Positions 6,047 through 41,396 of a stretch of DNA of 64,000 bases are shown here, piece by piece. The notes beneath the pieces are model-generated. The model ran no database searches. It saw only the letters and a program-made list of their open reading frames with translations, and was not told where the DNA came from. Numbering within the stretch: position 1 is the first letter of the stretch; each line of letters opens with the position of its first letter. The position numbers and the translations under genes are program-made. Source of the stretch: Bacteroides sp. Marseille-P3684 (lineage in GTDB: Bacteria > Bacteroidota > Bacteroidia > Bacteroidales > Bacteroidaceae); the NCBI RefSeq assembly GCF_900291465.1, contig NZ_LT985808.1, positions 2,200,181-2,264,180 on the forward strand, read 5' to 3'.

Positions 6047-6050
6047 GAAT

Positions 6051-21685: not shown

Positions 21686-22375
21686 CTATAATTCCACTTT
21701 TATGAATGAATAATTATCATCCATGTCAGAAGCCATGTCATTCAAACATTTCAGATTAGTATTATCACTTGACGCCATATATTCTTCTACGGGGACCTGT
21801 TTATGAAAACCATCTGAACACAATAAGAATACATCGTTCTTTTGGGCAGATACTATTTTAATAGGAATTTCATCTTTAAGCTCATCACCCATGACAGCGC
21901 GAGTTACTATTGCTCCATATTTCTCATAAATCGAGGGTGGTATATTCACTTTAGCTGCTAGCTGCTGCACGATGGAATGATCAGTTGTACAGGTCATCAT
22001 CTCGCCATCGCTGTATTTATATACTCGACTATCACCCAGCCAAGCAATATATGCCTGATCGTTGAGTATCAAAAGGATAGCAATAACAGCTCCCATCTTT
22101 TTTCCACCCAATTCCATCCGTTTAACCATAAGGGCATCGTTGGCAAAAGCAATTGACTCCCTTATTAAATCTTTCGGAGAGTAATTCGTCCTATTTTTCT
22201 CTATAAAACTCACAATTTTTGTAGCTACGATCTGAGCGGCTATCTCACTATGTGAGTAGCCACCCATACCATCAGCTAAAACAAATATTGCAGAGTCAGC
22301 AGACAGTGACCGATGGATTACATAATCCTGATTCACTGTTCTGCTACCTTTATTTGAATATTCTGTTATGTTCAT
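21686..22375 (-). CDS. PP2C-family protein phosphatase, last gene of the MADS-like operon
   Basis: 229 residues. Metal-binding motifs of PPM phosphatases are present: RTVNQDYVI, FVLADGMGGYSHSE, AWLGDSRVYKYSDGE, and VFLLCSDGFHKQV. It should remove phosphates from Ser/Thr in a metal-dependent way. Its ATG overlaps the stop of the HerA-ATPase gene by 4 bases (ATGA), tying it to the operon that encodes a Ser/Thr kinase three genes upstream. It is therefore the likely antagonist of that kinase. Cytosolic, with no membrane segment. Confidence 0.88.
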   Translation of the reverse strand: MNITEYSNKGSRTVNQDYVIHRSLSADSAIFVLADGMGGYSHSEIAAQIVATKIVSFIEKNRTNYSPKDLIRESIAFANDALMVKRMELGGKKMGAVIAILLILNDQAYIAWLGDSRVYKYSDGEMMTCTTDHSIVQQLAAKVNIPPSIYEKYGAIVTRAVMGDELKDEIPIKIVSAQKNDVFLLCSDGFHKQVPVEEYMASSDNTNLKCLNDMASDMDDNYSFIKVEL

Positions 22376-25300
22376 TCTTTTACAGCTTGTATCGTATCAC
22401 CACCATGTTTTGTTACACGTGGGCGAATACTGATTTTTATAGGACGCTGGGTTATCGCCTTATCGGTAGCTTTGTTTGCCCACAGGTATGCTTCACCAGA
22501 GCCTAATGCAGCCATTTCTGTGGCTGTTAAGGTCTGCAGTGGAGTTATCGCTTTCTGAACATGCTTAACCCAGGCCGGTGAACTAAATCGGTGCATCACA
22601 ACCATAGAACTTAATTCTATAATTTCCGTAGGCAAGCTCATCGGATCTTGGCTTGCAATCATGATGGAAACACCTTTATGACGCATCTCTCGGATTGCGG
22701 TCGTAATAGAATCCACCAATTCCTTGTTGTTCATATATTTATGAGCTTCATCAAAGACGATAAACTTATTGAAAGCCTTGCCGTCCACAGTCATTACACT
22801 TGAGAAGATATTAAGCATGACAACAAACAGGCCAAGAGCTTCCTCTTTTTCAATAAACTCATCGCGTAAATCGACTATAATCAATCTTCCCGGACGAAGA
22901 TATTGCTGTAGCTTACATCCGTCAGAAATATACTCCTCTGCAAAATCCAATTTTGTATTGGCTAATGCCCTCTGAGAAGTAGAAAGATGATCGCTGTTTG
23001 CAACACCCTGGCGAATATTTGCCAACGACATATTGTAGCGACATGCTTTCATTATCTGTTTGAGCTCTTTGATATAAGCAGAATCATTACCTAAAGCAGC
23101 CAAAAGGAACAACCAATCTCGTACAGCCAACTCAGAAGAATCAAAACCAATAGCATGTACTTCCAAGTCCGGATATTGAGCCTTGCGTAATTCCACTTGT
23201 GCTTCAGGAGCTAAGAGGATAACATCTTTAACAGAGTGAGCTTCTGCACCGTATTCAGTTTTTAACTTAGCCAGCTGATCTGCTTCATCATTAGGATATA
23301 CCATCGACGTAAACTCGGGAGCATAATCCATGCTTTCACTGTAGTGGAAAATAACCCCAGCCATAGGAGCAGGCAGTTTGTTTACCTTGGAATACTGCTT
23401 CAGAACCATCTCTGTGACAGAACCGATGGTATAACTCTTACCAGCACCTTGTACGCCAAACAAACTAATTGTATTACACTCGTTCAAGTCCATACCAATC
23501 ACGCGCCCATTTGAAACCATTTTCCCTAATACTCCGAATTGAGGAGAATCATTGTTTTTCCCAACAATGACATCTACCAAAGGCTCCTGATAATTCGGAT
23601 CGATTTCAGGCTGGTGACCCCGTTCTTTTATAGGGTCTGCCGGTAATGAATCATCACTTCCAGTATCATTTTCTTTATTATCCGCATTGGTATCAGGAAC
23701 TTCGGGTTCAGTATGTATGGAATCAGCTACAGGGACTTGCTCTTTCGATTTAGGACTGGTTTCTACTGCTGCTGTTTGTGAATTGTCAGACTCTTCTTCT
23801 GGATGATCAAGGATTACAGAAAGATTTTCTGCTTTAGCCTTAGCTGAATTTTCAGTCTTCGACATAACTGGATCAGCTTCTGGTTTCTTCAGAACAATTA
23901 CTTCATAATCCGTATCAATATGCGGTGATATCTCAACTGGCTGAACAGGTTTTGGTTGACCTTCCATGTCCGTTGTAGCAAGGCTGAATGTCGGCTCGAA
24001 GAAATTGATAAAGTCATTATCTTGAGCTTCCAGAATTTGAGTATTCAAGTCACTATTGTCATCGAGAATCTGTTCAATGACAGGATTTCCCATTGTGTAG
24101 ATTAACGTGTCACCATAGAAATCCTTCTTTTGACGTTCAGTTTGCATGAAATCAAAAATCACGCCAAGTCGTTTGAAACGAACGGAATAACCATCAGAGA
24201 GTTTGCTTAAAAATACTTTGTATTCATGAGCCTTATCCGGATTAAGTTGTCCATATCGTAATGAACGATTGATATAAAATTCCAGAAGCGACTTTAATTC
24301 CAACACTTTTAGTTCACGGTCAAGTCTGTCATGACCATCGACTGCAATTTCAAAATGGGAGCGAAGTGCTAAGATGGTATTTTCAATCTGGTTGACAATT
24401 TTCATGTGTAGCTCATCAGCTTGATAATAAGCATTTCTGCATTTTATCTCAACCACATTAAATAAGATCTCCTTACGCTTAACATCTATCTTGACAACAA
24501 GATTATCTGCACGTTCTTGGCTTTCGCTATCCAAGTCAACGAATAAATCTTTATGCAGATCAATCGGAATCATGATTGATTCTGTCGTGATGCCCTTCTT
24601 TTCCAGGAAACGTTTGGTTAAGGTCGTACCTATTACTTCAAATCCTTTCCGGGATGTTGTATTGACTTGCATAATCAACGAGCTGCTCACAGAACGGACA
24701 TCCTCTAGAATTTGCTTGAAGTTCTTCTTGTCTTCAATATCAATTCCATACTGTTTGAAAAGCGGAACCATCAAGGATGCAATTTCGCTGGTCGGTTTCG
24801 TGGTCAGATAAGAAGACACACCTGTCGCTTCGTCATTCGGGACATAATCCAACAGATACGGAACATCGGAATCTCCAAGACAGGGAAGGTCATAGAATTC
24901 AGGACCCATATTTTTATCAAATGTAATCACCCAATCGCTGCTGTCATGAATAAACGACAGCAACATCATATCACTCTCCTTCAAACGGAGTGTAGTTGCC
25001 GGTACAGATTCTTCGATGGTAGAAGAAAGCATTTTACCAATCACTTCTTGCAAACGGGCAAACAGGCTAACTTCCAAATTAGCCGATTCTGAAACCGGGT
25101 TCGGCAAACTCTTATTGGAATAATAGCGATTCCAAACGAATGTTTTACCAATCGGCTTCGCTTCTACAATATCCCTGCAAATTGTACCATTCAAGAAGAA
25201 AGAACGACTTAGTTCACTTGGACGAGAGGGCTCTGTATTTACAATAAACGGATTCACCAGAAAAGACAGATGAGCTTGATAGTCATCATGTTTGTTGATA

Positions 25301-27933
25301 AAGTCACTCGTCTTATTTAAAGAAAAGCGAAGTTTTGGGAACAAGCGGTTTGCAGAAGCTTGTGAAAACACTTCCGCATCGTTGGCAACTACAGATTCTG
25401 GATCGAGCAAATCCTTGAAAGCTTCACCCGACTGCAACATATTCTCATCGGTAAACAACCTGATTTCATAGGTCAGTTCATGCCCAATTCCTATCTTCTC
25501 CAAGCATACCAATGCCTCTGCGAATGTAGCTGCATCGCCTGCATTGAATAAATTGATAATCAGTTTATCTGTATAAGGATGAGATACACTGTAGTTAAAA
25601 AGATGACGTACTACCAACTCAAGGTTTACATCGCTATCAATACGTTTCTCTCTTGCCACATTCAGCAGCATGGAAACATAGGATTTCAACTGACGATTAC
25701 CCGAAGAAAAAGCCTCTTCCGATTGGGTCGGTTGCGCATAAGCACCCCAACCAAACGTCAGTTCACCGATATATTGATAGGCTTCCTTTAGCGGGTCATC
25801 ACTCAATACAATAGGTGCTACATTCATCGGTATTTGACCCTGGAAAAGTTTGTCCAATTTTCGATACCAAGCTTTTTTATACTTTGGATTCTCAATGGTA
25901 CGCTCTTCCCAGTCTTGATACAGCTCATAGAGATTTACAATCCAAGCCAGTCGCAACGGATGCAAAGGACTGATCATTTTAATCTTAGTCTTACTGCCAT
26001 CAGGCATTTCTACCGATAACAGTACTGTATCAATATTTTGCAGTTTGACGACAGTATCCGTGCTAAGATCTTTCTCCAGTTCTTCCCTGAGCCAAGCATC
26101 ATACTCAGACAGATAAGCTTTAATCAAGCCCAAATTGCTGGTGAAATCCAACGTGCTGGTCAAACCGGTTTCGTCTTCTGCTGACTCTCTGATGATAGCA
26201 AAGAGGTCTTCTCTTAATGCTCCCAATTCATTCGGAATATGAATGTCAGAAACAGGAACGAACAGCGGTTCACGATCGGCTGTATCATTCGGATTCATCA
26301 AGTAAGCATCTGTCGGATTACCGCCGAGTAAAGCTTCGATGTAACCAAAATCATTTGCATTTTTCAAGAAGGTAGATTCCAGTTGAATCAACTTCTTCGA
26401 CATTTGAATTTGGTAAGCATAAGCAGATCCAAAATCAAAATGATAGGTATTGTTCAGATTACCATCTACCCACCGATTACGATCTATGCCATCGGTAGGA
26501 ATGTCCAACTCTTCATTTTTAGCTAAATGAGCCGAACGATAGAGTATGATGGCTTGTGTGTAGCTGTTGACTTTGGCACGTTTGTCTATCTGACCTTCGG
26601 GAGCTTCTCCATCGTTCACAATGGTAAATACAGCAGATTCGTTACAGTAAGCAACATGGTGTTCCAAGCGATACTGTTCCATTTGAAGGTTGGGATTTTC
26701 TTTCTTGGCTTCTTCCCACGCTGCTTGTACCTGGTCTTCCTTGAATATTTTCTTTTGCTCAAGTACAATGCCATTCTCGTCTAAAGCTCGGACACGAAGC
26801 ATATAATCACCTTCGTCAAACATTCCGTCTGCAATGTTCACTGACATCTTGCGTGTAGCACGCTTGTTGGTTCCTACTTTAGCTTTTTTAATTATACCCA
26901 CTTCTGAAAAGTCATCGATGTCAACCAAGGCTATTTCGAAAGAAACAATAGCGGGGTTATCTTTAGGCGCAGGATCAGTTGTAATGGTAAAGGAAACTTT
27001 TGATTTCTTCTCCGGTAAGATGTTCAGGACAAAATTCCCTTCTTCATCCTTGACCAATTCTTTCTTTGAATCCTTACCTGTATTCAAGTCCACCATTACC
27101 TTCACAGGTCCGGAAGAACCTATTTCAAGCCAAGGCACCTTCGCGTAATTAAATTCCGGATGTTTACAAAGAATACACTCAAACAGCGAGTTGGCATCAT
27201 TCAAAGAATCATCAGAAGTCAAGAAGGTCATGAGCGCACGCTGAATGGTTCCTCTTTCAATCGGAAGAGAGGCTATACGGTCAGCTGCAGTCAAAGAAAA
27301 ATCAGCAAGAATGGCCGATGCTTTCTCTTTATTCAGCATAAAGCGTCTGCGGACAGCATTCTCTTCTTTGAAAAGTTCACTGTCCGGCCACATACCAAAT
27401 ACAAACAACCCATTTCCCCAAGCCTCACTTGAATACTGATTCAGTTCAAGGTACAGGATATAGGAAATAAGATCACTCTTGTAGGCATGCACTTCATCTC
27501 TTAACAGCTCAAAAATTTGGGACCAGTTAGATGTCTTTTCTTCAGGCATTTCATCCATCAATTTATAGATAAAGGAATCCTGAAGGTCTGATGCCGACAA
27601 GTTTTGGAATGTAGCGTCACCATAGGAGTCTTCAGCTGATGTTCTACTGTTGGTCGGGACCAAAATCAATACTGCTTTGGATGGGTCATTTCTCAATTCA
27701 ATGAGTTTCGTTGCATGGATATATTCATCCCCTTTTTCTTCTTCCGAGAGGATGAATACAGAAAGGCTTTCATTGATAGGGCGCAATAAAGGAAGCAACA
27801 CACGAAGTTCCTTCAGAGCAAGACCGGTTATCTTCATACAATGCCCTGGGCGAACCTGCTTCAGCTTTGGTGCATATATTTCAACGACGTGTTGAATAAA
27901 ACGTTCGTAATATAGTGTTCTAATTTCTTCCAT
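22372..27933 (-). CDS. Large HerA/FtsK-type ATPase with candidate PD-(D/E)xK nuclease motif
   Basis: 1853 residues. The C-terminal ~430 residues are a HerA-like translocase domain: Walker A GVQGAGKSYT near 1496 and Walker B FIVFDEAHKYM near 1728, followed by IMIASQDP and a C-terminal arginine-rich stretch. An acidic low-complexity linker (~1330-1440) precedes it. Near 1150-1165, KIDVKRKEILFNVVEIKCR has the D...E-x-K spacing of PD-(D/E)xK nucleases. The first ~1100 residues are not recognised. Architecture recalls large HerA proteins of DNA-modification-linked defence such as DptH. It starts 3 bases after the upstream gene and overlaps the PP2C gene. Likely the DNA-acting effector or motor; this is inference. 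Confidence 0.8.
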   Translation of the reverse strand: MEEIRTLYYERFIQHVVEIYAPKLKQVRPGHCMKITGLALKELRVLLPLLRPINESLSVFILSEEEKGDEYIHATKLIELRNDPSKAVLILVPTNSRTSAEDSYGDATFQNLSASDLQDSFIYKLMDEMPEEKTSNWSQIFELLRDEVHAYKSDLISYILYLELNQYSSEAWGNGLFVFGMWPDSELFKEENAVRRRFMLNKEKASAILADFSLTAADRIASLPIERGTIQRALMTFLTSDDSLNDANSLFECILCKHPEFNYAKVPWLEIGSSGPVKVMVDLNTGKDSKKELVKDEEGNFVLNILPEKKSKVSFTITTDPAPKDNPAIVSFEIALVDIDDFSEVGIIKKAKVGTNKRATRKMSVNIADGMFDEGDYMLRVRALDENGIVLEQKKIFKEDQVQAAWEEAKKENPNLQMEQYRLEHHVAYCNESAVFTIVNDGEAPEGQIDKRAKVNSYTQAIILYRSAHLAKNEELDIPTDGIDRNRWVDGNLNNTYHFDFGSAYAYQIQMSKKLIQLESTFLKNANDFGYIEALLGGNPTDAYLMNPNDTADREPLFVPVSDIHIPNELGALREDLFAIIRESAEDETGLTSTLDFTSNLGLIKAYLSEYDAWLREELEKDLSTDTVVKLQNIDTVLLSVEMPDGSKTKIKMISPLHPLRLAWIVNLYELYQDWEERTIENPKYKKAWYRKLDKLFQGQIPMNVAPIVLSDDPLKEAYQYIGELTFGWGAYAQPTQSEEAFSSGNRQLKSYVSMLLNVAREKRIDSDVNLELVVRHLFNYSVSHPYTDKLIINLFNAGDAATFAEALVCLEKIGIGHELTYEIRLFTDENMLQSGEAFKDLLDPESVVANDAEVFSQASANRLFPKLRFSLNKTSDFINKHDDYQAHLSFLVNPFIVNTEPSRPSELSRSFFLNGTICRDIVEAKPIGKTFVWNRYYSNKSLPNPVSESANLEVSLFARLQEVIGKMLSSTIEESVPATTLRLKESDMMLLSFIHDSSDWVITFDKNMGPEFYDLPCLGDSDVPYLLDYVPNDEATGVSSYLTTKPTSEIASLMVPLFKQYGIDIEDKKNFKQILEDVRSVSSSLIMQVNTTSRKGFEVIGTTLTKRFLEKKGITTESIMIPIDLHKDLFVDLDSESQERADNLVVKIDVKRKEILFNVVEIKCRNAYYQADELHMKIVNQIENTILALRSHFEIAVDGHDRLDRELKVLELKSLLEFYINRSLRYGQLNPDKAHEYKVFLSKLSDGYSVRFKRLGVIFDFMQTERQKKDFYGDTLIYTMGNPVIEQILDDNSDLNTQILEAQDNDFINFFEPTFSLATTDMEGQPKPVQPVEISPHIDTDYEVIVLKKPEADPVMSKTENSAKAKAENLSVILDHPEEESDNSQTAAVETSPKSKEQVPVADSIHTEPEVPDTNADNKENDTGSDDSLPADPIKERGHQPEIDPNYQEPLVDVIVGKNNDSPQFGVLGKMVSNGRVIGMDLNECNTISLFGVQGAGKSYTIGSVTEMVLKQYSKVNKLPAPMAGVIFHYSESMDYAPEFTSMVYPNDEADQLAKLKTEYGAEAHSVKDVILLAPEAQVELRKAQYPDLEVHAIGFDSSELAVRDWLFLLAALGNDSAYIKELKQIMKACRYNMSLANIRQGVANSDHLSTSQRALANTKLDFAEEYISDGCKLQQYLRPGRLIIVDLRDEFIEKEEALGLFVVMLNIFSSVMTVDGKAFNKFIVFDEAHKYMNNKELVDSITTAIREMRHKGVSIMIASQDPMSLPTEIIELSSMVVMHRFSSPAWVKHVQKAITPLQTLTATEMAALGSGEAYLWANKATDKAITQRPIKISIRPRVTKHGGDTIQAVKE

Positions 27934-27936
27934 TGT

Positions 27937-29493
27937 TTACAATTTATAGCGTGGACGAATCTTCTGTAGAATACAAGCATCACTCATATCCGTGTAGAAA
28001 CCAATCTGACGAAGTTTGTCTTTGAAAGCTTCTACATTCGTGCGAAATGCTTCATTCATTTCTACATCAGCGTTTGCAAAACGCTCTTCACTGACACCAT
28101 TGATAATTAATCCATAACGATTTCTTATTTCCTGGATCAATTCATCGATGGATAAGGAACGGGTCTCATAACTTCCATCAGACTTCTCTTTCAGTACCAA
28201 CAGCTGAACCAGTGTTTCCAATAGTTTGGAGCCAAGTGCACCCCGTCTGGGATGGCGACGAGAACGACTGTCTGCCAGCAGTTTGGATGGCGAATTTTTC
28301 ATCGTAACCGCATCCAGAAATTCATGTAAATAACGGTATTGATAATTACCCAGATTTGATTTTTCTAAGATATGGACCAACATGTCAAAGTAATCTTCTT
28401 CGGGGAAAAGTTCAAGCATTTCCCTGAAATCTTCTTTATCAAATTCCTTTTCATCTGAAGTAGGAAGATCCTTGCGTATTCCATTCAGAACCGACTCATA
28501 GAAACCGTCAGACTTATTATTTTCTTCTTTCAATATTCGCAAAGCTTCGTCTATTGAACAGGCTTTTCTATCTTGAATGATATCGACCATGTAAGTAGCC
28601 CGAATGTACTTGCCTATGCTGTTTTGAAGTATCTCAACATCCTTACAAGCATAGGTCGAAACAATGCTGTTCAAGTCATCTGTCACATCCAAAAGCAGCG
28701 ACCAATCATCGGTTACCTGTCGTGAACCGGCATCTACCATTTTGGGCAACAAATAAATCACTTTCATGGCATACAACGCCAAATGAAAACCACATAAAAT
28801 TCTCAGGTAATCAATGAATACTGCTCTGGGCAGTTTATCTTTATAAAGTAAGAGTCTGCAAATATCATCATTGAACAACGCTGCCTGTTTACGAAGGAAG
28901 GGCTGTGGTATGGATCCAGCAACTTTATTCAAGGTCTTACGTTCCTTCAGAGGTTTAGTAATATACAGAATACCTGTAGTGTCCACATCCAAATCCTCAC
29001 TCTTGACGAGTTCACCTGTTTGCTTGTCCCAGCCTTTACTGAGGTATTTAACCAATCCGCGCATGACTTCCGGATTACTGCGCAGCATAAGATAAAGCTG
29101 GTCAGAAGCGCGGTAATCACGGCAGTACTTACTGTTTTGTACACGGAAGCTCAATAGATGCAATGGCTTGAGTGTAGAAACATGCTCCTTTACCACATTT
29201 CCACGGTTGACCAATTCAAGCAGTGAACTGCGAAGCCAGTCCTCTATGCCATCCGGATTATCTGTTACACCACGGATGTCACCTTGGTCTTCTAAGATAG
29301 CCAGATGCTCTTTCAGGATGTCGATGGTATATTCTTTACGGAAAGACATAGAAACAGGAGCGCCATCAGCATACATCTTGATAAACAAATTGGTCAATAC
29401 ACGATCTAGTTTTACCGACTTAACATCGACATAGAATATATCTTTATTAAGAAATGCCTGCACCCCTGTTCCTTTCTTTAGCTTTAATATCAT
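27937..29493 (-). CDS. Unknown protein of the MADS-like operon
   Basis: 518 residues from MILKLKKGTGVQAFL, 4 bases beyond the kinase stop. An in-frame ATG at 29517 would overlap the kinase gene by 20 bases and add eight residues. No recognised domain, signal peptide or membrane span. The sequence is mixed alpha/beta with a long helical middle and charged C-terminus (RSRRHPRRGALGSKLLETLVQLL). It sits 3 bases before the HerA gene. A partner subunit linking kinase and HerA ATPase is a reasonable guess from position only. Confidence 0.75.
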   Translation of the reverse strand: MILKLKKGTGVQAFLNKDIFYVDVKSVKLDRVLTNLFIKMYADGAPVSMSFRKEYTIDILKEHLAILEDQGDIRGVTDNPDGIEDWLRSSLLELVNRGNVVKEHVSTLKPLHLLSFRVQNSKYCRDYRASDQLYLMLRSNPEVMRGLVKYLSKGWDKQTGELVKSEDLDVDTTGILYITKPLKERKTLNKVAGSIPQPFLRKQAALFNDDICRLLLYKDKLPRAVFIDYLRILCGFHLALYAMKVIYLLPKMVDAGSRQVTDDWSLLLDVTDDLNSIVSTYACKDVEILQNSIGKYIRATYMVDIIQDRKACSIDEALRILKEENNKSDGFYESVLNGIRKDLPTSDEKEFDKEDFREMLELFPEEDYFDMLVHILEKSNLGNYQYRYLHEFLDAVTMKNSPSKLLADSRSRRHPRRGALGSKLLETLVQLLVLKEKSDGSYETRSLSIDELIQEIRNRYGLIINGVSEERFANADVEMNEAFRTNVEAFKDKLRQIGFYTDMSDACILQKIRPRYKL

Positions 29494-29497
29494 ATCA

Positions 29498-32400
29498 TTA
29501 CACGTTAAGAGGTTCAATGATTATATGCTTTTGGCTGTCTAAACGTATTGCAGTAAACTTGCGATTGTTTTTTGTCACAAGTATTTCTGAATAGGTTTTT
29601 GCCTCCAGCAAATTCTTAAATATCTGCAACTCAATAAAACGTCCACGCAAATCGTTTACAGAAGGACTGAATCCGGCATGAATGTATTTGAGCATTTCAT
29701 ACAGGTCAAGACTTACCGTCAGTTGGATAAATTTATCCTCCTTATGACGGAAAATCAAGCTGTCGCTTTCATATTCAATGTACTTCGTCAAGTGTTCGGT
29801 CTTATTCACATAGAACTCGAATTCATCCAAAGAGAAGCGACGGTAACTCTTTGAAATAGGATCTGCCACGTTTGAACTGGCCAATAAAAGATATCCCTTA
29901 GTCAGCAACTCGTTTGAACATCCTTCACTTGCAGAAATCGCACTTGCAAGATCTTGCATGGTTTGGGCCAATTCCTTAGGGTCTTCCTGGCGCAATTGCT
30001 TTTCAAAAGCATTGGCATACCGATAAGGAAGTCTTCTTTTGAAATCAATGGCACCTTCGAAATACTGATGACGGACAAATGATTTGTGACGGCTTGTAAC
30101 AGCCATACGCACTTCATCCGACCTTACCTCATAAGAAGGGATAATCTGATTACAGTCATTGAAGTCTTTTAATAATGAACGCTTGCGGTCACTAAATATG
30201 ATGTAGTCATTGGGGTGTTTGATACGGTAGTACAGATCACGGTCAAAGGCAGGAAGTGCAACACCAGCTACGTCTGTCTCACGAAGCAACTTGACCAGTC
30301 GGTCATTGGAATCCAATGTTGGCAAATTGAAATATTCCACCTTGCTGGCGTCAGGATAGACAACCGGAGCTGTGAGATTGAAGTAATAATATTGCCAGTA
30401 ATATTCCGGAATGTTATTGGCATTCACCAGTTCTATCAGTGCCTTGACTTCATCACAAGAATAATCACGAGTCAGCATCCAGGCTATTATAGAACGCAAA
30501 TCGCGCATTGTGATATGCAGTTCCCGCTTATATACAATCGTACGAACCAGCCATTCCAGACGATTGATGACTTCATCGCCTGCACTGGTGTCCTGGAATG
30601 TATCTACATTATACTTGATAAAACAGCGGTCGGCAACTGGACAATTTTGGCATTTACTCCATAACTCAGGACGGGTCAGCTTTTTCATTTGCTGAGCCAA
30701 CAAACTTGGAGTTTTCGATTCTACATCTCGTGCTGTGACAGACCGAAGATTCAAGTTGATGACCATCAGACCCGGGAGCAATTCTGTATGTCCTTCTTTG
30801 TAGAAATACTCCTCAATATTATCTTGTAATATCCGCAGTTCAGGATGCATGGATAAAAAATCCACCAGACGCCCTTCATTGATCGCAATCACACGGCCTT
30901 CCGTAGCTTGCGTATAATCATTCAATCCATAGAAGGGTGAAAGAAATTCAGTCAGCACTTCATCGTTCGCCTTATTGCTTTCATCCTGCGAGCCATCATA
31001 ATTCGATTCAAACCGAATGCCCGAGAGGTAGAATTGCGAACCGTTATTGGTGTCAAACTGCTGTTTGTCCTGTCCCTTATCTTCAATTCGGTGAATAAAT
31101 GCTGTTTTACCATCTCCTGCATTACCGGTGATGATAATAAGCTTGTATTTCAGAGCTTCGATATCTGCTATCAATTCTCTGTCTAATCGTGTCTCAGAAT
31201 AGGTAAGTTCATCAAATGCATGTTGAGCGACACCAGCTCTTGTTCCCCCATTTCCATGGTGGCTTTGGCTATACAGTGAGTTGATGTAATCCACTGAATT
31301 ACCCATTTCTTGGCCTTGATGAATAATAGTAACCATAGTTGAATCCTTCTGCATACCATCCAGACCGATAGCATTCAGGGCATCCAGCATTTCTTTTGCT
31401 GTTTTAAACCGCTTATTCTTGTCTGTACGGATAGACTTCATAATGAAGTCTGCCATCGAATCAGACAACTTATCATTATAGTTACGGATATCCGTAGGTT
31501 GTTTATGGATATTAGGGCGCAAGTTACCTCCAGGCCACGGATACGCATGCGCCAGTAATTCATACAGTGTGATACCCAATGCAAACGTATCAGCGGAACA
31601 ATCCCAATCAATCTTGTTCCCAGAGAGGATTAAGTCTGGAGCCATGTAGGGGAAGGTGCCTCCAAATGATTTATCCTCAGTAGTAGCCGAGATATTAAAG
31701 TCTATCAGCTTATACTGCTGACGCTTGTGCCACATGATATTGCTAGGTTTAATATCACGGTGATACACAGGTGGAACTTTGCTCTGCATGTAGGTTAGTG
31801 CATTCAGGATTTGTGAAGCCATTTTGAATATTTCATCTGCAGGAAGTCGCAAATCGCCCTTGGTGTACTCTTGTAGATTTTCGCCCTCAAGCAATTCCAT
31901 CAGTGTAAAGAACAAGCCTCCGGGAACAGTCCTGTCGTTATACTTGAATTCTACGATGTTTGGATGATGTAACTCTTTAAGCGCATTGAACTCATTAATG
32001 GCATTATCTATAGAAGCATCCTTCTCAAAAATCTTGATGGCCAAGTATTGTTTCTGCATGTCGTGCCACACCTTGAAAACTCTTCCAAAACCACCTTTCC
32101 CAAGGGTTTCATGAAGCGTCATACTGGGAGAAACCTTCATACCGGGTTTCATATCCTTGAGGTATAAAGTCTTCTCCTTCTTCGTAGTTACAACTGTAAG
32201 GGGTGTGGCTATCGTTTTATGTACTTCTTCATCAACAACCCGGTTAAGGAAGTTAAGCACTTCGTCGGCTGTTTGCCAACGTTTATTGACATCAGCAACA
32301 ATCGTCTTCTGCACAAACTCATCCATCCATGCAGGTAGTTCCTTCAACACATGACTGGGCAGATGGTCTGCCGGAAGTTCACCGCCTAAGGCAGCCATAA

Positions 32401-33637
32401 AAGTAACCACACTGTCAAAAGGCAATTTGCCAACCATGAGTTGATAAAAAATTACCCCCAAAGAATAGATATCGCTGGTAGAAGAAACATCACCGTCCAA
32501 CAGTTCAGGTGCTGTGTAGGGTGAAGACTGATTGCCCGTGGCATTAACAGAGAAGCTCAGATCGATGTGCTCCACAAACCACGACATTCTAAAGTTTGCT
32601 AGTGCAGCTCTACCCCCTTCATAAACATAGATGTTCTCAGGGCATACATCGCGGTGATATACCTGCACCTTATGTGCCACTTTCAGTGCATTAGCTACAT
32701 CCATGATGATGCTCAGCTTATCCGTCTGTTTGAATGTCTTCTGATTGAGCTTGGCCCGCAGTGAACTTTCGTCCTGGTAACGACTGATTTCATAGTAGTA
32801 GGTCTGCTCTTCATTCATCTGGCACTTCGTGTTGACAATGTAGGGGGAATCTCCAATCTTCTCTTGTGCCATGTAAGCGTTTTGCACCGAATAAGCCAAC
32901 TGCTGCAGTTCCTTCGGACTTTTATCTGCCACATCCAACGGATATTCACGCACCCGGTAACGGGCTGTGGCAATAAACTGGGGAATACAAAGGTATTCGG
33001 TAAATTCTTCCGTTTCCTGAAGCTTTTCCTCTATGCGATAATTGAATATCGTGGTACGTTCAGCGCGTTTCCGCTCTACAGATTCCCCGGTAAGGAAATC
33101 TGTCAGCTTATTCATTAAAGACTGAATACTATTTACAGAACGAGACACCAATTCATGATTGGTGATAAATTCAATCAAATCATCCCCTAATGTAAAGGTC
33201 TGCTTATAGGTATCACAGGTAGGATCCAAGCCGAACTTTGATTGCTGAGGATGGCTAAGTGTTACCAGCGTAATGATTTGGCCGAAATTCCAATCCGGAT
33301 GTTGGTTCTTGATTTTGGATGCAAGAATACGACTCTTTAATCCTGCAGTCTTATGCGGATTAGCTACTTCCTGACCATTGCGGAACCAGGCATAGTCGTC
33401 TCCTTCCAGATTACCTGCCCAATCCTTATTCTCGATATGATAAAGGGCATGAGGAGTCATCACGATACAATCATATTCCCAATACTTCACAATGCGGTTC
33501 AGTCCCGTAATCGCAATATTACAATTGGGGATAATGTAAAAATTGTCAGGCAACTTCACCGACAGAAAATCCAGCAAGCGCTGTTCTCCGGCATTTACCG
33601 GTCCATCGTCATGAGGAGGTCTTTTTATGATTGCCAT
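29498..33637 (-). CDS. NERD - pseudokinase - Ser/Thr kinase - P-loop fusion protein
   Basis: 1379 residues. A NERD nuclease-related domain occupies ~15-150 (YDCIVMTPHALYHIENKDW, with E-x-K near 69). The first kinase-like domain (~205-480) has YHRDVCPENI near 327 and an APE motif, but its DFG is replaced by NFR, so it looks like a pseudokinase. The second kinase (~505-775) has LGKGGFGRVFKV near 512, AIKIF, YHRDIKPSNI near 626 and DFN, and looks catalytic. A P-loop ATPase begins at GNAGDGKT near 841, and CQNCPVADRC near 1000 may bind zinc. NERD-kinase fusions occur in PglW-type and other phage-defence systems. The gene follows a 245-base gap with a repeat cluster. Function as a phage-sensing kinase is inference. 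Confidence 0.87.
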   Translation of the reverse strand: MAIIKRPPHDDGPVNAGEQRLLDFLSVKLPDNFYIIPNCNIAITGLNRIVKYWEYDCIVMTPHALYHIENKDWAGNLEGDDYAWFRNGQEVANPHKTAGLKSRILASKIKNQHPDWNFGQIITLVTLSHPQQSKFGLDPTCDTYKQTFTLGDDLIEFITNHELVSRSVNSIQSLMNKLTDFLTGESVERKRAERTTIFNYRIEEKLQETEEFTEYLCIPQFIATARYRVREYPLDVADKSPKELQQLAYSVQNAYMAQEKIGDSPYIVNTKCQMNEEQTYYYEISRYQDESSLRAKLNQKTFKQTDKLSIIMDVANALKVAHKVQVYHRDVCPENIYVYEGGRAALANFRMSWFVEHIDLSFSVNATGNQSSPYTAPELLDGDVSSTSDIYSLGVIFYQLMVGKLPFDSVVTFMAALGGELPADHLPSHVLKELPAWMDEFVQKTIVADVNKRWQTADEVLNFLNRVVDEEVHKTIATPLTVVTTKKEKTLYLKDMKPGMKVSPSMTLHETLGKGGFGRVFKVWHDMQKQYLAIKIFEKDASIDNAINEFNALKELHHPNIVEFKYNDRTVPGGLFFTLMELLEGENLQEYTKGDLRLPADEIFKMASQILNALTYMQSKVPPVYHRDIKPSNIMWHKRQQYKLIDFNISATTEDKSFGGTFPYMAPDLILSGNKIDWDCSADTFALGITLYELLAHAYPWPGGNLRPNIHKQPTDIRNYNDKLSDSMADFIMKSIRTDKNKRFKTAKEMLDALNAIGLDGMQKDSTMVTIIHQGQEMGNSVDYINSLYSQSHHGNGGTRAGVAQHAFDELTYSETRLDRELIADIEALKYKLIIITGNAGDGKTAFIHRIEDKGQDKQQFDTNNGSQFYLSGIRFESNYDGSQDESNKANDEVLTEFLSPFYGLNDYTQATEGRVIAINEGRLVDFLSMHPELRILQDNIEEYFYKEGHTELLPGLMVINLNLRSVTARDVESKTPSLLAQQMKKLTRPELWSKCQNCPVADRCFIKYNVDTFQDTSAGDEVINRLEWLVRTIVYKRELHITMRDLRSIIAWMLTRDYSCDEVKALIELVNANNIPEYYWQYYYFNLTAPVVYPDASKVEYFNLPTLDSNDRLVKLLRETDVAGVALPAFDRDLYYRIKHPNDYIIFSDRKRSLLKDFNDCNQIIPSYEVRSDEVRMAVTSRHKSFVRHQYFEGAIDFKRRLPYRYANAFEKQLRQEDPKELAQTMQDLASAISASEGCSNELLTKGYLLLASSNVADPISKSYRRFSLDEFEFYVNKTEHLTKYIEYESDSLIFRHKEDKFIQLTVSLDLYEMLKYIHAGFSPSVNDLRGRFIELQIFKNLLEAKTYSEILVTKNNRKFTAIRLDSQKHIIIEPLNV

Positions 33638-33787
33638 AATATTTCGTTTTTAATTGTTGTCAACTATATGTATCACCGGAATCCAGAATCAAGATTTACG
33701 TTTACCGACTCCCGATGGTCAAACTATCTTTTATTATTAAATTTGAATGTAGCTGAAAAACGACCATGCTAGCTTAATGCTTCTTGA

Positions 33788-33892
33788 TTATAACCGAAAT
33801 ATAACCGAATTATAGCCGAAATGGCCTTGTATTTGCCTGTATTCATGAATTTTATAAAAATACTTGAATGTTATAGCCGAATTTATAACCGC
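33788..33892 (-). repeat. Five-copy TTATARCCGAA repeat cluster upstream of the kinase gene
   Basis: Three perfect-phase 11-bp tandem units at 33788-33798, 33799-33809 and 33810-33820, plus two more at 33871-33881 and 33883-33892. The last overlaps the stop codon of the AlbA_2 gene. They fill much of the 245-base gap 33638-33882, the only sizeable gap in the operon. Possible protein-binding sites. Confidence 0.85.
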
Positions 33893-35565
33893 AGCTTCGA
33901 TAATCCGATTTCTGTTATATTCCAGGTTCTACCATCAACTTGAAGCAGAAGTGAGGCACTCATCTTTCCAAGCAATCTTCCCAAGTATCTTTTCTTTGAT
34001 GTCATACTCATGGAAGCAGGTAAATTTTTATACAGAGCCTCATAAACATCGCTTAATTTAAAACCTTCCTTTCCTGCATCTTTAGCCAATTGAAGTATGG
34101 TTTGTTCGAGCAATTTCTCTTCCAAGCCTTTTTCTTTAGTATAATGTCCAATTTGATGCGTCAACTTGGCTACTGTAAGTGAGATGATGTAATTGGGCCA
34201 ACGTCCTTCTATCAGTCCTTTTTCCTTCAGATGCTTGATGGCATCCTTCGTTACAGGTCGATGTTTCTGAATTGCATCCAACCAAAAACATTCCTTCAAT
34301 GTCAAATCCGTATTCGATTTCAGCAGCGAGCTATACTTTTCGTCAATCATCTTTCCATAGATAGTGACACCAACCGTACGGTTCTCATTGTCTATGTCAT
34401 AATCAGGCATGGGGAAAAAGCGATTGCGTTGCTCAGCAAATATCTTCTTGATGCCTCGTCCTACAGTATCAATCATATTGAAATTCACCATCCCTGAGCA
34501 AAGACACTCGTTCCGATAATGGCGTTGTGGTCCTTTGTGCTCCAGGGCTTTCTCTATAGTGCCGGGGATGAAACTGCCTCCATTGCCATAATACAACTTG
34601 TCTTCACCTTCTACAAACGAGATGCGTTCTTGAAGTGTATAGTCCTGATGGGCTATGCAATTGTGCAGAGCTTCGCGTATGGTATAATCGTCGTATTGCT
34701 TCATGGTATCGGGAAAAAGGGTTCCACCCGGCAACTCACGCATGGTTTTGTTACGAATCTTAGCAAGCACCTTATCTACCGTGAGGATAAAAGGAATAGT
34801 GAAATGCTCATAATCAATTACCGTAGCGTCCTTGTCTTCCCATGTCCAGGTAATCTGTGCTACTGCCGGATGAATCTTTTGCAGCGATAGCGGTTTGCCA
34901 AGTAGCAAGATGGCGGCTCGGGTAAGCTGTCCCTCACGCATCACTCCGCTATGCGAAAGAAACTCTTCTACCGTCCATCCATCAACTTCTTCTGCAGCAA
35001 TCTTCGACTTATGCACCTTCTTAAACATGATGCGAGCTGTAGCGATAGCCAACTCGTCAAGGTCATCAATGGTAGCATTCGGAACCAGTTGGGCAGTCCA
35101 ATCAGGTATCGGAGGCTGCTGACGTATTTCATCCTGCTTGGCTTGATTTAGCGGTTTCAAGCTTTCACCATCGCGCCCATAAGCAATCCCTTTCCACTTC
35201 ATCACGATATTTCGAGGAGTGGCAGGCACTTTAAATAGCAGCACGCGCTTATCCTCTACCGTTACCGGAATGATTTCACGAAAAATCACCCCGTCGGTTG
35301 TATGCTGCGACATATCTTGTTTCAGTCTATTGAGTGCCATCTCTCCATCTTTGAAGGATGTCCCAATAACCTGATGTTTCTTATCCCATACACCAAACAC
35401 AATCCAACCAAATTCACGTTCTCGTAAGTTGGCTTCGTTGCTGAGCGCAGAGAAGTATTTTCCCAACTCATCTATATCAAAGTTGGTTTCTGCCTTTTTG
35501 AATTCCACCACTTCATTTTCAGCGTGTTCCCAAAGGCGGTAAAAAATTTCTATATTCTCGTCCAT
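33883..35565 (-). CDS. AlbA_2/Schlafen-type ATP-binding putative regulator
   Basis: 560 residues. The N-terminal AlbA_2 domain (EHAENEVVEFKKAETNFDIDELGKYFSALSNEAN, FGVWDKKHQVIGT) spans ~1-150. A HATPase-like middle follows (YTIREALHNCIAHQDYT, DKLYYGNGGSFIPG near 300-340, NFNMIDTVGRGIKKIF), and the C-terminus looks winged-helix-like. Proteins of this architecture are often annotated as transcriptional regulators or helicase-related and are frequent next to type I restriction genes and in defence islands. It starts 3 bases after hsdS ends, so it is in the operon. Confidence 0.82.
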   Translation of the reverse strand: MDENIEIFYRLWEHAENEVVEFKKAETNFDIDELGKYFSALSNEANLREREFGWIVFGVWDKKHQVIGTSFKDGEMALNRLKQDMSQHTTDGVIFREIIPVTVEDKRVLLFKVPATPRNIVMKWKGIAYGRDGESLKPLNQAKQDEIRQQPPIPDWTAQLVPNATIDDLDELAIATARIMFKKVHKSKIAAEEVDGWTVEEFLSHSGVMREGQLTRAAILLLGKPLSLQKIHPAVAQITWTWEDKDATVIDYEHFTIPFILTVDKVLAKIRNKTMRELPGGTLFPDTMKQYDDYTIREALHNCIAHQDYTLQERISFVEGEDKLYYGNGGSFIPGTIEKALEHKGPQRHYRNECLCSGMVNFNMIDTVGRGIKKIFAEQRNRFFPMPDYDIDNENRTVGVTIYGKMIDEKYSSLLKSNTDLTLKECFWLDAIQKHRPVTKDAIKHLKEKGLIEGRWPNYIISLTVAKLTHQIGHYTKEKGLEEKLLEQTILQLAKDAGKEGFKLSDVYEALYKNLPASMSMTSKKRYLGRLLGKMSASLLLQVDGRTWNITEIGLSKLRL

Positions 35566-35568
35566 AAA

Positions 35569-36945
35569 CTAATTCTCCTTTCTTGCACTCCAAGAGTCTA
35601 TTTCTTGCTCAACCATAGAGATAGCTTTTTTTTCTTTTTCAATAGCCATTCCTACTTTTTTGCTGTATTCTATCACCCAATTATGTATATCATCTATGAT
35701 AGAATCTTCGATGATTGGAATTGGAATTAATTTTAAATGAGGGGGTTCTATATGTTGTATTACAGATCCAAATATATGCTTTTGAATAAGAGCTTTACCA
35801 ATAGAGGACGAAAGGAATGCATAGATATACCCACCTTTGAGCATGTCATTCGGCTGTAGCCGAATGACATGCTCAGAAGCAAGCTTCTGAGCATGTCCGG
35901 CATGCGCCCAAGCCACATTTCCTATTGTGCCAGATCTTGGTATCAAAATAGTATTTTCTTTTATCGTTAGACTATTAATGTTTGCTGTTTTAGATTTTGA
36001 TAATTGCTTTTTACTATCTGGATTAGATAAAAATATGTCAGCTCCTCCTAAAAAAACAATACCGTTTTGAACATAATATCTTTTGAATATATCAGGTCTT
36101 GAAATGTCTTCACACACTTCACCCAAGGGTTTCCAAGTAAAATGTTTATAGATATATTCTTCAATGTCGTGACCTTCTGATATATAATAATTTGCTTCAA
36201 ACCTTTTATTATGAGAGGATAGAATTGTGCGTGAAGAAACACACTTAACATTTTTCTTTGCAGGATATGGGATGATTTTTTCAATTTGTTGTATTGCTTG
36301 TTGTAGCACATCAGCTGCCTCCTCACGCAATCTTGCTGATTCCTGTATCAGATCGTCTACTTCCTGCTGGAAGGATTCAGGGAAGACTGGGACTAATATC
36401 GATTTAGTCTGTACATCATTAATATGCTTAACTACACCTCCAAACTGAGACTGAGTAATTTGGTTGTAGCCATATTTTCCTGAAAGAAATGCATATAAAG
36501 TACCCTTATTAACCTTGTTATCATTAGGGATTACACGAATTAAATCATGAGTAGCTATATGATTTTCAAATGTCTTGTTTGTGTATATTACATTACCAAG
36601 AGTCCCCGAACAAGTAATTAGAATCCAATCGCTTTTAAGAATTAAATATTTTAATTTTTTTACTTGCTTGTGAGATAAGTATCTACCAGTTTCTATATTT
36701 GCAAGAACTGTGTCAGATGCTGCCAAATAAGGCATCCCATGTTTAATATCCTTAACAAAAACCCGTGAGAATATATTACCCAAGAAAACCTTACTTGCAT
36801 TCTCTCCTACAGTCGAAAGATCATAAGGCGAAAGTGTAAGTTGCTCACGAGCTTGTACACCATCGCTTAAATGAACATCAGGATCGATTCTATATCCCAA
36901 ATTGGAACGAAGCAATGTTTTAGAATTTATAATACCCGTTTTCAT
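35569..36945 (-). CDS. hsdS: Type I DNA methylase specificity subunit
   Basis: 458 residues with two target-recognition halves, each with its conserved end region (SQFGGVVKHINDVQTKSILVPV near 180 and FGSVIQHIEPPHLKLIPIPI near 400), separated by a helical spacer (EEVDDLIQESARLREEAADV type). It directs the HsdM methylase to a bipartite DNA target. Its ATG overlaps the hsdM stop by 4 bases. A perfect 38-bp palindrome lies inside the second half (35838-35875). No HsdR gene accompanies it. Confidence 0.87.
   Translation of the reverse strand: MKTGIINSKTLLRSNLGYRIDPDVHLSDGVQAREQLTLSPYDLSTVGENASKVFLGNIFSRVFVKDIKHGMPYLAASDTVLANIETGRYLSHKQVKKLKYLILKSDWILITCSGTLGNVIYTNKTFENHIATHDLIRVIPNDNKVNKGTLYAFLSGKYGYNQITQSQFGGVVKHINDVQTKSILVPVFPESFQQEVDDLIQESARLREEAADVLQQAIQQIEKIIPYPAKKNVKCVSSRTILSSHNKRFEANYYISEGHDIEEYIYKHFTWKPLGEVCEDISRPDIFKRYYVQNGIVFLGGADIFLSNPDSKKQLSKSKTANINSLTIKENTILIPRSGTIGNVAWAHAGHAQKLASEHVIRLQPNDMLKGGYIYAFLSSSIGKALIQKHIFGSVIQHIEPPHLKLIPIPIIEDSIIDDIHNWVIEYSKKVGMAIEKEKKAISMVEQEIDSWSARKEN
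35838..35875. repeat. Perfect 38-bp palindrome inside hsdS
   Basis: 18-base arms with a 2-base centre, in the second half of hsdS. A 16-bp palindrome (35874-35889) follows directly, and GAGCATGTC recurs at 35889-35897. Unusual inside coding DNA; it encodes a continuous frame. Confidence 0.9.
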
Positions 36946-38981
36946 ACCCGATGTTCCTCCAAGAATTTAGCATAAGCAGCAGCCACTTCTGGCAGATCAT
37001 CAGCCAAACGCTTTACACGTTCGCGGCGACTGCGCACAATTTCACGCCCATTTTCCGTATAAGTCAGCCATTTTTTTTCGTGAGCAAAGAGAATCTCTGC
37101 ACCATCCTCATCTTTCTTATAGACAGGCACGCCACGGCGGTCTTTCCCCACTTGCTCTACAATGGCCATAAACACATCGTAATCCTCTTTGTCGATGGGA
37201 ATAAGCAATTCTTCAGCTGTTTTCTTTTGAAGGAACAGCAAAGAAGCCTGCACACCCACTTGCGGCAAGAATGCCTCTACAGGGAGGTCTACAGAAGCCA
37301 AAAGTTTGAAGTGTTCCAAAATCCATTTACGCACACCTTCTGTATTGGGGTTTCCCAAAATGCCATCGGGCAATACGATAGCCATTTTGCCACCGGGCTT
37401 CAAGAAGTTGTGGCATGCCTCGATGAAGAGCACTTCTGGAGCATTGCTGTCCAACTCATAGCGGCGGGCTATCTCTGCATCTACCTGTACCTTTGCCCCA
37501 AAGGGAGGATTCGTGAAAATCATATCGAATTTGCCCTGTGCATTGCCAGGCCCCGTTTCAAAATGGAAATCCTTATCCTTGCTCTGCTTTATGCTTTCGT
37601 TGACCGCTTCGGCTACCAAAGGACGGTCGGGCTTATCTCCATGTGGATAATCCAAGGAATTGATGTTGAAAATATTGCAATGTCCATCGCCCGCCATCAC
37701 CATATTCATCCGTGCTGCTTTCTTCAAGTCGGGGTCAAAATCGAATCCAAAAATCATGCGTTCCGCATAGTGGCGTGTCAATTCCTCCACTTCGGGCGTA
37801 TTGATGCGGGCAGCCAGGCGCACTTCATCCAATTCCGGGTACAGATTGCGCGCAATTTTATGACGCACGTGGTCGAGCACCATCACCAGAAAGCCGCCCG
37901 AGCCACAAGCTGGGTCGAGCACACGGGTGTTTTGATCAGGGTCCAGCATTTCGACCATGCACTTGATGATGTTTCGTGGAGTAAAGAACTGTCCGGCTTC
38001 CTGCTTCAGCGTATTGCTAACAATTGTTTCATAAGCCGTTCCTTTCACATCGACAGTCGCATCCAAGAAAGAATATTTGGCCAGTTCTGCAGCCACAAAA
38101 GCGAGTCCGCGGTCAGACAGCATAATTTGCTCCGAACCGTCAAACACGTCACGGAACACCTGGCTCTCCTTGAGTTCCTCAAAAAGTCCCCTAATGCGAG
38201 CGGCCACCGCTTTTCGCCCTTCTTCGGTAAACTGCTCCGTTACCCCCACCCAAAAGCGGCGGCGATAGCTGATGCCTTCTTTGGCATCCATATTGCGTCG
38301 TTTTTCATCGTATAGTTTGCAGAAAATCAAGTTCAGCAACTCCCAAAACGCAGTCTTCTTCATGCCTTCATTGCCATAGATATAATCGTGGCAACGCTTG
38401 AAAGTCTTAATCAACGATTCGTTGGCCGGTTTACGGGGCATGGCACGGTCACCCTGCGCCTCAAGATCTGCTAGCGTCTGCCCATTGGCAGGGAAATCAG
38501 AAATATCCTGCACCTCAGACTGTCCGAAAGCATCTTCTGTATAGTAGCGGTATACCAAATCCTCCCCATTGGTCCAACAGCCAAACTCACAGTCGGTAAA
38601 TGTCAATATGTTATCAAGCATGGCTTCCGCACCCTTCTTGGTATCCGTGGGTTTCACCTTCGCATCTTTTGCCACGACAACAAAGCGGATGAGGTTTTCT
38701 ATCACATGCTCCTTTCCTTCTTCAAAGATGGCCAAGTCCACACTCTGAGCCCGGATCTTGTCCGAATCCGGCTCTTGATAGGTCACCCTAAAGTCGCGTT
38801 CCATGTCTTCGGGGGCGAATCCGTATTCTTCTGCCATCATGTCAATCATTGATTGCAGGGTCAGTTCTTTATCCGTCGTTTTCACCACTTTATTGGTAAG
38901 CGTACAGACCAGCTGGTTATCTTCTAATACCAATTCGTCGTTTTCTTGTATGCTGTTAATGAGGGTTGTCTTATCTTCCAT
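36942..38981 (-). CDS. hsdM: Type I N6-adenine DNA methyltransferase subunit
   Basis: 679 residues from MEDKTTLINSIQEND; an ATG six codons upstream (38999) is less likely. The SAM motif DPACGSGGFLVMVLDH near 365 and catalytic NPPFG (FTNPPFGAK) near 490 identify an N6-adenine methylase. An N-terminal HSDR_N-like/helical region (~60-150, with TYQEPDSDKIRAQSVDLAIFEE) precedes it. It should mark host DNA with the S subunit encoded next. No restriction subunit follows; kinase, HerA ATPase and phosphatase genes do, which suggests self-marking for a non-classical defence system. Confidence 0.92.
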   Translation of the reverse strand: MEDKTTLINSIQENDELVLEDNQLVCTLTNKVVKTTDKELTLQSMIDMMAEEYGFAPEDMERDFRVTYQEPDSDKIRAQSVDLAIFEEGKEHVIENLIRFVVVAKDAKVKPTDTKKGAEAMLDNILTFTDCEFGCWTNGEDLVYRYYTEDAFGQSEVQDISDFPANGQTLADLEAQGDRAMPRKPANESLIKTFKRCHDYIYGNEGMKKTAFWELLNLIFCKLYDEKRRNMDAKEGISYRRRFWVGVTEQFTEEGRKAVAARIRGLFEELKESQVFRDVFDGSEQIMLSDRGLAFVAAELAKYSFLDATVDVKGTAYETIVSNTLKQEAGQFFTPRNIIKCMVEMLDPDQNTRVLDPACGSGGFLVMVLDHVRHKIARNLYPELDEVRLAARINTPEVEELTRHYAERMIFGFDFDPDLKKAARMNMVMAGDGHCNIFNINSLDYPHGDKPDRPLVAEAVNESIKQSKDKDFHFETGPGNAQGKFDMIFTNPPFGAKVQVDAEIARRYELDSNAPEVLFIEACHNFLKPGGKMAIVLPDGILGNPNTEGVRKWILEHFKLLASVDLPVEAFLPQVGVQASLLFLQKKTAEELLIPIDKEDYDVFMAIVEQVGKDRRGVPVYKKDEDGAEILFAHEKKWLTYTENGREIVRSRRERVKRLADDLPEVAAAYAKFLEEHRV

Positions 38982-39042
38982 AACTACTAAAATTACCATT
39001 TAAGTTTTACTTTACAATATCCAAGTTAGTCCATGTTTTAAT

Positions 39043-39354
39043 TTACTCATGGAGATTGGTCCTTATTTCACTGTTGGCAAGACGAAGAGCACGCTGCGCA
39101 ACCAGTAAAGGCTCATCCTTTGTTACATTGATAATCTTATCAGCTGTCCATAAAGAACGTAGTTCTTCCTCTTTAACATGGAGTATGTCCGCTATAGGGG
39201 CAATATACTCATCTCGAAAAGGACGAATGCCTCTTTCAATCCTGCTATACATTGGCTCATCAACACCAATCGCGTAAGCAATTTGACGCTGCTGTACATT
39301 CAGTTCATTACGGAGCTGCTTTATTCGTGCGAGTAACATATTAGAATTTATCAT
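39043..39354 (-). CDS. XRE-family transcriptional regulator of the MADS-like operon
   Basis: 103 residues from MINSNMLLARIKQLRNELNV; ATG 39339 is an alternative, and the in-frame extension to 39465 runs through the promoter and is rejected. HTH: QQRQIAYAIGVDEPMYSRIERGIRPF near residues 22-48. First gene of the minus-strand train, 61 bases before hsdM. Its promoter carries a perfect inverted repeat between the -33 and -7 boxes, typical of autoregulation. It probably controls the whole operon. Confidence 0.85.
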   Translation of the reverse strand: MINSNMLLARIKQLRNELNVQQRQIAYAIGVDEPMYSRIERGIRPFRDEYIAPIADILHVKEEELRSLWTADKIINVTKDEPLLVAQRALRLANSEIRTNLHE

Positions 39355-39382: not shown

Positions 39383-39417
39383 CAAAGATAGCATTTACTT
39401 GTCAATTTTAGACAAGT
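39383..39417 (-). promoter_or_regulatory. Promoter and operator of the MADS-like operon
   Basis: On the minus strand TTGT (39415-39412), a 21-base spacer and TATCTTTG (39390-39383) form a Bacteroidales promoter. A perfect inverted repeat ACTTGTC-N7-GACAAGT (39397-39417) fills the spacer and overlaps the -33 box, a likely binding site for the XRE protein encoded 29 bases downstream. Confidence 0.75.
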
Positions 39418-41293: not shown

Positions 41294-41350
41294 TCAATTT
41301 TAGTTGTTAGTTTTGTGACCATCGGGAGCCGTTCCACCAGACTTTGAGGT

Positions 41351-41396
41351 GGAGCAAGTTGTCGGGAAATGTAATACACCGACATAAACTTGCTCC
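41351..41396. other. Candidate oriT inverted repeat
   Basis: Arms GGAGCAAGTT-GTCGG (41351-41365) and CCGAC-ATA-AACTTGCTCC (41379-41396) pair with a 3-base bulge. They lie in the 180-base non-coding gap immediately upstream of mobC, the usual oriT place. The nick site is not identifiable by eye. Confidence 0.65.

Follow-up and report, generated by a model that had tools for sequence, protein, structure and literature searches.

The window analysed here is a 64,000-nucleotide stretch of Bacteroides sp. Marseille-P3684 (contig NZ_LT985808.1, positions 2,200,181 to 2,264,180). It carries eight open reading frames, all on the minus strand from position 39354 down to 21686, which on the basis of profile matches are a defence operon of the methylation-associated defence system (MADS) family with a Bacteroidota-type layout. 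All eight genes named in a preliminary description of this DNA were recovered with their domains from the reading-frame list and by Pfam. In gene order they encode an XRE-family helix-turn-helix protein in the MAD1 position, a putative regulator by that position (39043..39354; HTH_3, E 6.9e-10); MAD2, an HsdM-like N6 DNA methyltransferase of 685 amino acids (aa) (36942..38999; N6_Mtase, E 1.7e-37); MAD5, an HsdS-like specificity subunit of 458 aa (35569..36945; Methylase_S); a 560-aa AlbA_2/HATPase_c_4 protein (33883..35565) in an accessory slot between the HsdS and kinase genes; MAD6, of 1379 aa, with a NERD domain, two protein kinase stretches (a pseudokinase and a kinase) and a P-loop (29498..33637); MAD7, which is DndG-like (27937..29517); MAD8, a DndH-like protein of 1853 aa with a HerA_C domain (22372..27933); and a 229-aa PP2C Ser/Thr phosphatase that retains the conserved aspartates (21686..22375; PP2C_2, E 7.5e-15). 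The protein described earlier as an unknown of 518 residues is identified as MAD7 by NCBIfam; it has 518 aa only from its second start, an ATG, and 526 aa from a TTG. Successive genes are separated by 43, -4, 3, 245, -20, 3 and -4 bases. The tight 3-4 base spacing reported before describes most junctions but not the 245 bases between AlbA_2 and the kinase gene, the largest spacing of the operon (the others run from -20 to 43), and the arrangement is operon-like despite this gap.

Five of the proteins exceed the NCBIfam equivalog cut-offs for MADS: MAD2 (796.7 bits, cut-off 720), MAD5 (474, cut-off 400), MAD6 (701.4, cut-off 460, covering residues 1-620), MAD7 (542, cut-off 410) and MAD8 (213, cut-off 175, covering residues 30-225 only). 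PADLOC recovered mad2, mad5, mad6, mad7 and mad8, the last on residues 1481-1850; on the MAD2 protein its type II methyltransferase model scores above mad2. The XRE protein matched neither mad1 (PADLOC) nor MADS1 (NCBIfam) despite its HTH_3 match, and none of the MADS models matched the AlbA_2 and PP2C proteins. No match to the MAD3 and MAD4 models of either collection was found in the eight operon proteins, to which this search was limited, the rest of the genome not being searched; the place of mad3-mad4 between the HsdM and HsdS genes is empty, as these overlap by 4 bases. The reference for comparison was an eight-gene MADS on a Piscinibacter plasmid, used in place of the P. aeruginosa MADS, whose genes matched mad1 to mad8 in order. 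The window operon is colinear with it except for mad3-mad4, AlbA_2 and PP2C. The earlier call of a MADS-like system is borne out by the five models and the gene order, but the correspondence is incomplete: the operon lacks MAD3 and MAD4, its XRE protein lies outside the MAD1 model, PP2C is added after MAD8 and AlbA_2 between MAD5 and MAD6. Because the lack of mad3 is common to loci with PP2C (0/50 have mad3), the operon is filed as a variant of MADS and not as a canonical one. The abstract of the MADS paper, Maestri et al. 2024, reportedly contains the words MADS-like systems, and the PP2C layout may already have been described there under that name.

Based on profile comparisons with hhalign, the C-terminus of MAD6 resembles DndF (probability 97.5, E 8e-12) and MAD8 resembles DndH (probability 98.7, E 3.7e-16). 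The C-terminus of MAD6 also matches SspF (E 8.4e-22), and a C-terminal stretch of MAD7 matches SspG (E 3.8e-9). The gene order is the same as in DndFGH. Conservation was followed in family alignments from which incomplete proteins were left out (73 HerA, 81 MAD7, 72 kinase, 51 PP2C, 62 HsdM and 69 HsdS). The DndF-like core of MAD6 (29498-31330) has a P-loop of the DndF type with Asn in Walker B: both GNAGDGKT (residues 838-845) and N920, whose assignment to Walker B is by motif, are invariant (72/72). A pattern search of six DndF proteins found this pair in two, the Asn motif alone in one and neither in three. MAD8 combines a HerA/FtsK ATPase (22375-23496; HerA_C and PADLOC mad8), a methyltransferase-fold region from the fold search (about 24784-25686) and a D...ExK nuclease-type motif (24442-24639), also found in DndH, whose D1143, E1162 and K1164 are invariant (73/73). 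By motif, alignment and methyltransferase fold this corresponds to the DndH-type pairing of a REase with a dead methylase, the nuclease fold being unmatched among the matches listed. The absence of a restriction subunit claimed earlier is right for HsdR, but the HerA protein has this invariant nuclease-type motif. The HerA likeness to Dnd-linked restriction noted then holds and extends across MAD6, MAD7 and MAD8.

MADS is coupled to an adenine-type methylase whereas Dnd is coupled to DndBCDE and Ssp, in the passages available of PMC8092258, to single-strand phosphorothioation; the same paper reports DNA damage and a growth defect from unrestrained SspFGH. None of the eight proteins is recognised by NCBIfam as a Dnd modification protein, the operon having HsdM and HsdS instead, and DndH gave no match in the genome. 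The F subunit, MAD6, is moreover fused to NERD and tandem kinases, as is reported for some DndF, and PP2C is added.

Several results weigh against the likeness to DndFGH. Profile comparison of MAD7 with five DndG proteins gave a weak 29%, and with a single DndG 0.1%. With Foldseek alone, neither MAD7 nor residues 560-1300 of MAD8 matched a PDB entry at E <= 0.001, and the nuclease region of MAD8 lacks an independent structural match because the fold search was filled by methyltransferases. For MAD7, the solved DndG came up in the VIA second look only, being absent from the 50 Foldseek rows listed; the DndG fold was counted as present in MAD7. Sequence searches of the PDB matched the MAD7 profile to two designed proteins only (E 0.013 and 0.56) and the HerA part of MAD8 to five HerA-like chains (best E 6.6e-5), with no match for the MAD8 560-1300 profile or the MAD6 C-terminus. 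Overall, homology of MAD6-MAD7-MAD8 to DndF-DndG-DndH is supported.

If the cutting were done by the NERD nuclease of MAD6, MAD8 would be merely motor and scaffold. This is the most serious alternative, although an unlikely one. The NERD domain is clear (Pfam E 4.7e-12), its E54, D56 and K71 are invariant (72/72) and position 69 carries E in 54 proteins and D in the other 18, a pattern that tells against MAD8 as the nuclease; Rakesh et al. (PMC10853773, in the part available) regard NERD fusions on DndF as co-effectors. However, the nuclease-type motif of MAD8 is as invariant as the NERD residues and its relative DndH is reported as the carrier of the REase. In addition, the six DndF proteins have 529-812 aa against 1379 aa in MAD6, so the Dnd engine works without a NERD-kinase front.

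Relatives of the operon were collected through MAD7. A scan of GTDB species genomes gave 119, of which 80 were kept; it favours Bacteroidota because the query alignment was headed by the window MAD7. The mad7 model matches 3 of the 393 genomes of the order, the own genome included, and a search for MAD7 in phage records gave no match. The 87 loci analysed (the window and L004-L089, with plasmid and genome loci) each have a labelled MAD7, and many are cut by contig ends. They hold kinase (87), HerA (86), HsdS (76), HsdM (72), PP2C (56), mad3 (15), mad4 (12) and AlbA_2 (8) genes; PP2C directly follows HerA in 56 of 56 PP2C loci and is never found together with mad3 (0/87). Entering identical MAD7 once (L024, L027, L028, L029, L048 and L064 dropped) left 81 distinct loci, with kinase in 81, HerA in 80, HsdS in 70, HsdM in 67, PP2C in 50, mad3 in 15 and AlbA_2 in 8, and again none with both PP2C and mad3 (0/81).

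There are thus two layouts that never overlap, PP2C after MAD8 (50/81, Bacteroidota) and MAD3-MAD4 (mad3 in 15/81, other phyla). Where enough flank is present downstream of MAD8 (72 loci), 50 have PP2C, 13 are of the mad3 type and nine have neither. A quick MAD7 tree with 81 rows has one branch that separates all 15 mad3 rows from all 50 PP2C rows; its branches are long, so finer joins are unsure. The PP2C side also includes four loci with neither (two Hymenobacter-type, one Chitinophagales and one Bacillus) and two cut loci. The Leptolyngbya locus L067 has mad3-mad4 in reverse orientation downstream of MAD8, and its HsdM adjoins HsdS, an arrangement which suggests that mad3-mad4 is a movable unit.

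Of the 72 distinct loci with enough flank, which span several phyla, 65 have HsdM and HsdS ahead of the kinase gene. Two of the seven misses, L013 and L017, end before the HsdM place; L083 lacks HsdM and L087 lacks HsdS. L075 has a 345-aa remnant of the kinase gene beside TonB-receptor-like genes, and the remaining two misses are L055 and L066. For HsdM, kinase, MAD7, HerA and PP2C, correlations between pairwise distances range over 0.78-0.95 (n 40-72; 0/200 Mantel shuffles as high), with rho 0.93 for HsdM against kinase (60 loci), and these five are co-inherited. The distances of HsdS correlate less over all loci (0.52-0.58 with HsdM, kinase, MAD7 and HerA; 0.17 with PP2C), and within the PP2C group HsdS diverges nearly independently (rho 0.12-0.17 with the other genes). 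Target specificity is shuffled in type I restriction-modification systems, and decoupling of HsdS would be expected if the same held here.

These data bear on the idea that HsdM-HsdS is a solitary methylase and the kinase, HerA and PP2C genes a separate system, the two being chance neighbours on a mobile element, which we consider quite improbable. In its favour, and against a single system, L066 has MAD6-8 with no recognised HsdM or HsdS upstream. L055 carries an AlwI-type restriction enzyme and a different, N4/N6 methylase in their place, and the near-decoupling of HsdS in the PP2C group points the same way. The upstream conservation and the co-inheritance of HsdM with the kinase argue for one system. 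Independent occurrence of hsdMS/AlbA_2 and the other genes had been named beforehand as the finding that would speak against a unit; hsdMS stay with kinase, MAD7 and HerA, but AlbA_2 does not, being replaced in relatives. As a separate observation, the MAD6-7-8-PP2C set adjoining the AlwI-type enzyme of L055 (L055:3403-6173) has a MAD6 shortened to 885 aa.

A system like BREX type 2 (Pgl) is suggested by the PglW-like protein, as PglW has NERD, pseudokinase and kinase in the same order as MAD6, and its model matches MAD6 with 230.5 bits. That match covers residues 53-756 only and falls far short of the 990 bits required, the C-terminal half resembles DndF/SspF and the partner genes differ: no PglZ was matched among the eight proteins (NCBIfam, E <= 0.01), and the PglX models are weak on MAD2 (best 31.4 bits against 500). 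We regard this reading as very improbable. The proposed profile check against MADS, BREX and Dnd favours MADS, with a likeness to Dnd wider than HerA.

Least credible of all is a type I restriction-modification system with HsdR encoded elsewhere, for although HsdM and HsdS are present and 13 sites in the genome carry ResIII-type helicase domains, MAD2 and MAD5 exceed their MADS cut-offs, ResIII, a general helicase domain, is present in 14/14 controls, and HSDR_N, the sign of the distant HsdR that had been named as refuting a MADS-like system, has 0 matches in this 99.96% complete genome against matches in 9/14 control genomes. One ResIII match lies about 19 kb past the window end (G000:C1:2283483-2284010) inside a 2059-aa frame.

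The kinase differs between the two layouts. The first kinase domain of MAD6 has degenerate motifs (a pseudokinase), while the second (about 31370-32119) is of the active RD type, with K535, E549, H626, D628, N633 and D646 invariant (72/72). In PP2C, Asp17, 35, 115, 188 and 220 are invariant (51/51). The kinase is RD (HRD) in 49/49 PP2C loci and non-RD in 14/14 mad3 loci (HCD 13, HFD 1); the remaining nine have HRD (5), HCD (3) and HLD (1). Activation-loop phosphorylation is the usual means of control of RD kinases, and we infer that PP2C reverses it in the window system. Against a functional pairing stand L006, L056, L060 and L063, which lack PP2C and lie on the PP2C side of the tree, yet have an RD kinase, and L066, on the other side, which has one too. 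Layout also follows phylogeny, so the pairing is confounded and the split into RD/PP2C and non-RD/mad3 is possibly one evolutionary event.

The whole is probably best explained, judging from sequence, as a Bacteroidota-type MADS with a methylase self-mark, a DndFGH-like restriction complex, an RD kinase/PP2C switch and an optional AlbA_2. MAD2 and MAD5 would methylate adenines at a recognition site and so mark self DNA. By analogy with Dnd and Ssp, MAD6, MAD7 and MAD8 would form the restriction complex, in which MAD7 would bind DNA and read its modification state, MAD8 would cut through a PD-(D/E)XK-type nuclease domain and translocate DNA by its HerA motor, and gating of the complex would fall to the MAD6 P-loop core. 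The likeness of the three large proteins to the Dnd DNA-cutting machine suggests this as the route by which unmarked viral DNA may be destroyed. Phosphorylation by the RD kinase may turn the complex on, with the adjacent PP2C resetting it; in mad3-type systems MAD3-MAD4 may act as the lock instead. We lean somewhat towards a broader view, in which DndFGH, SspFGH and MAD6-7-8 would be one engine placed on different self-marks (phosphorothioate in Dnd and Ssp, adenine methylation in MADS), with two exchangeable locks in MADS, PP2C on an RD kinase and MAD3-MAD4 with a non-RD kinase.

A 2026 review, in the part available, calls the restriction mechanism of MADS unknown (PMC12904381). A 2024 analysis describes, in the portions available, standalone DndFGH without an inbuilt modification module, and DndF with NERD and tandem kinases, MADS being unmentioned there (PMC10853773). 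No link between MADS and DndFGH was found in titles and abstract openings, a coverage with subscription papers and preprints mostly outside it, or in the MADS passages of PMC12904381, PMC11842806, PMC12322248, PMC12926258, PMC12948488, PMC12707154, PMC11980395 and PMC12839542. The homology, not found in print within the literature searched, would give MADS its restriction engine. If kinase-bearing FGH modules are MADS, MADS gains a nuclease and part of the orphan FGH modules a self-mark, and the PP2C and MAD3-MAD4 layouts offer a clean way to test what keeps such an engine off in its host.

The slot between the HsdS and kinase genes is occupied in 12 loci, all within one Bacteroidales group of 13 rows in the MAD7 tree. 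Eight hold AlbA_2 (L013 with further genes), L014 has a DUF1016/YhcG nuclease-type gene, and L016, L017 and L019 have a gene of 220-223 aa with one or two large genes. The small gene is CpXC by Pfam in both loci scanned, L013 and L017; of the nine proteins searched (eight slot neighbours of AlbA_2 and one AlbA_2 relative) the large ones gave weak matches or none. Because the contents vary and AlbA_2 is in only 8/81 loci, it is cargo and not core, an interchangeable passenger of MADS that may serve as an optional accessory, as regulator or backup effector.

The XRE frame opens at 39465, and 39354 is an internal ATG. On the minus strand upstream of it lie TATCTTTG (39383-39390), which by consensus we take to be a Bacteroides-type -7 box, and the palindrome TTGTC-N7-GACAA (39399-39415). 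As both sit just 5' of it, ATG 39354 is preferred as the start, and together (39383..39415) they are a possible autoregulated promoter of the XRE gene. The palindrome occurs once in the 64 kb against 0.10 expected, with at least one match in 9/100 shuffles. It was found in 2/99 other loci, L010 and L011, both times at the XRE gene. Together with L012 they make up the three nearest relatives, and the XRE gene of L012 is truncated at the end of the locus.

The operon sits beside mobilization genes of a mobile element. Relaxase-like (40045-40989), MobC-like, primase-like, DUF3987-like and integrase-like genes, labelled by eye, flank it at 40045-46211. The annotation of a Bacteroides finegoldii plasmid (L005) shows a similar gene order ahead of MADS, and L064 has a shorter part of it. 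Within this module a 121-aa gene (43978-44343), with a counterpart in L005, was labelled mad1 by the iterated search; this gene, well away from the operon, probably encodes an HTH_17-type protein of a general kind. Other genes lie upstream of HsdM in the relatives: an AbiEi/AbiEii-type pair directly upstream in L035 (618-2487), DUF6577 in L006 and L040, and, by size alone, similar genes in many, including L025 and L039. Elsewhere in the window, by eye, a nucleotidyltransferase-like and helix-turn-helix pair (52335-54079) resembles the AbiE type, and positions 1-7223 hold a large RHS/YD-repeat-like gene in tandem partial copies whose C-termini differ.

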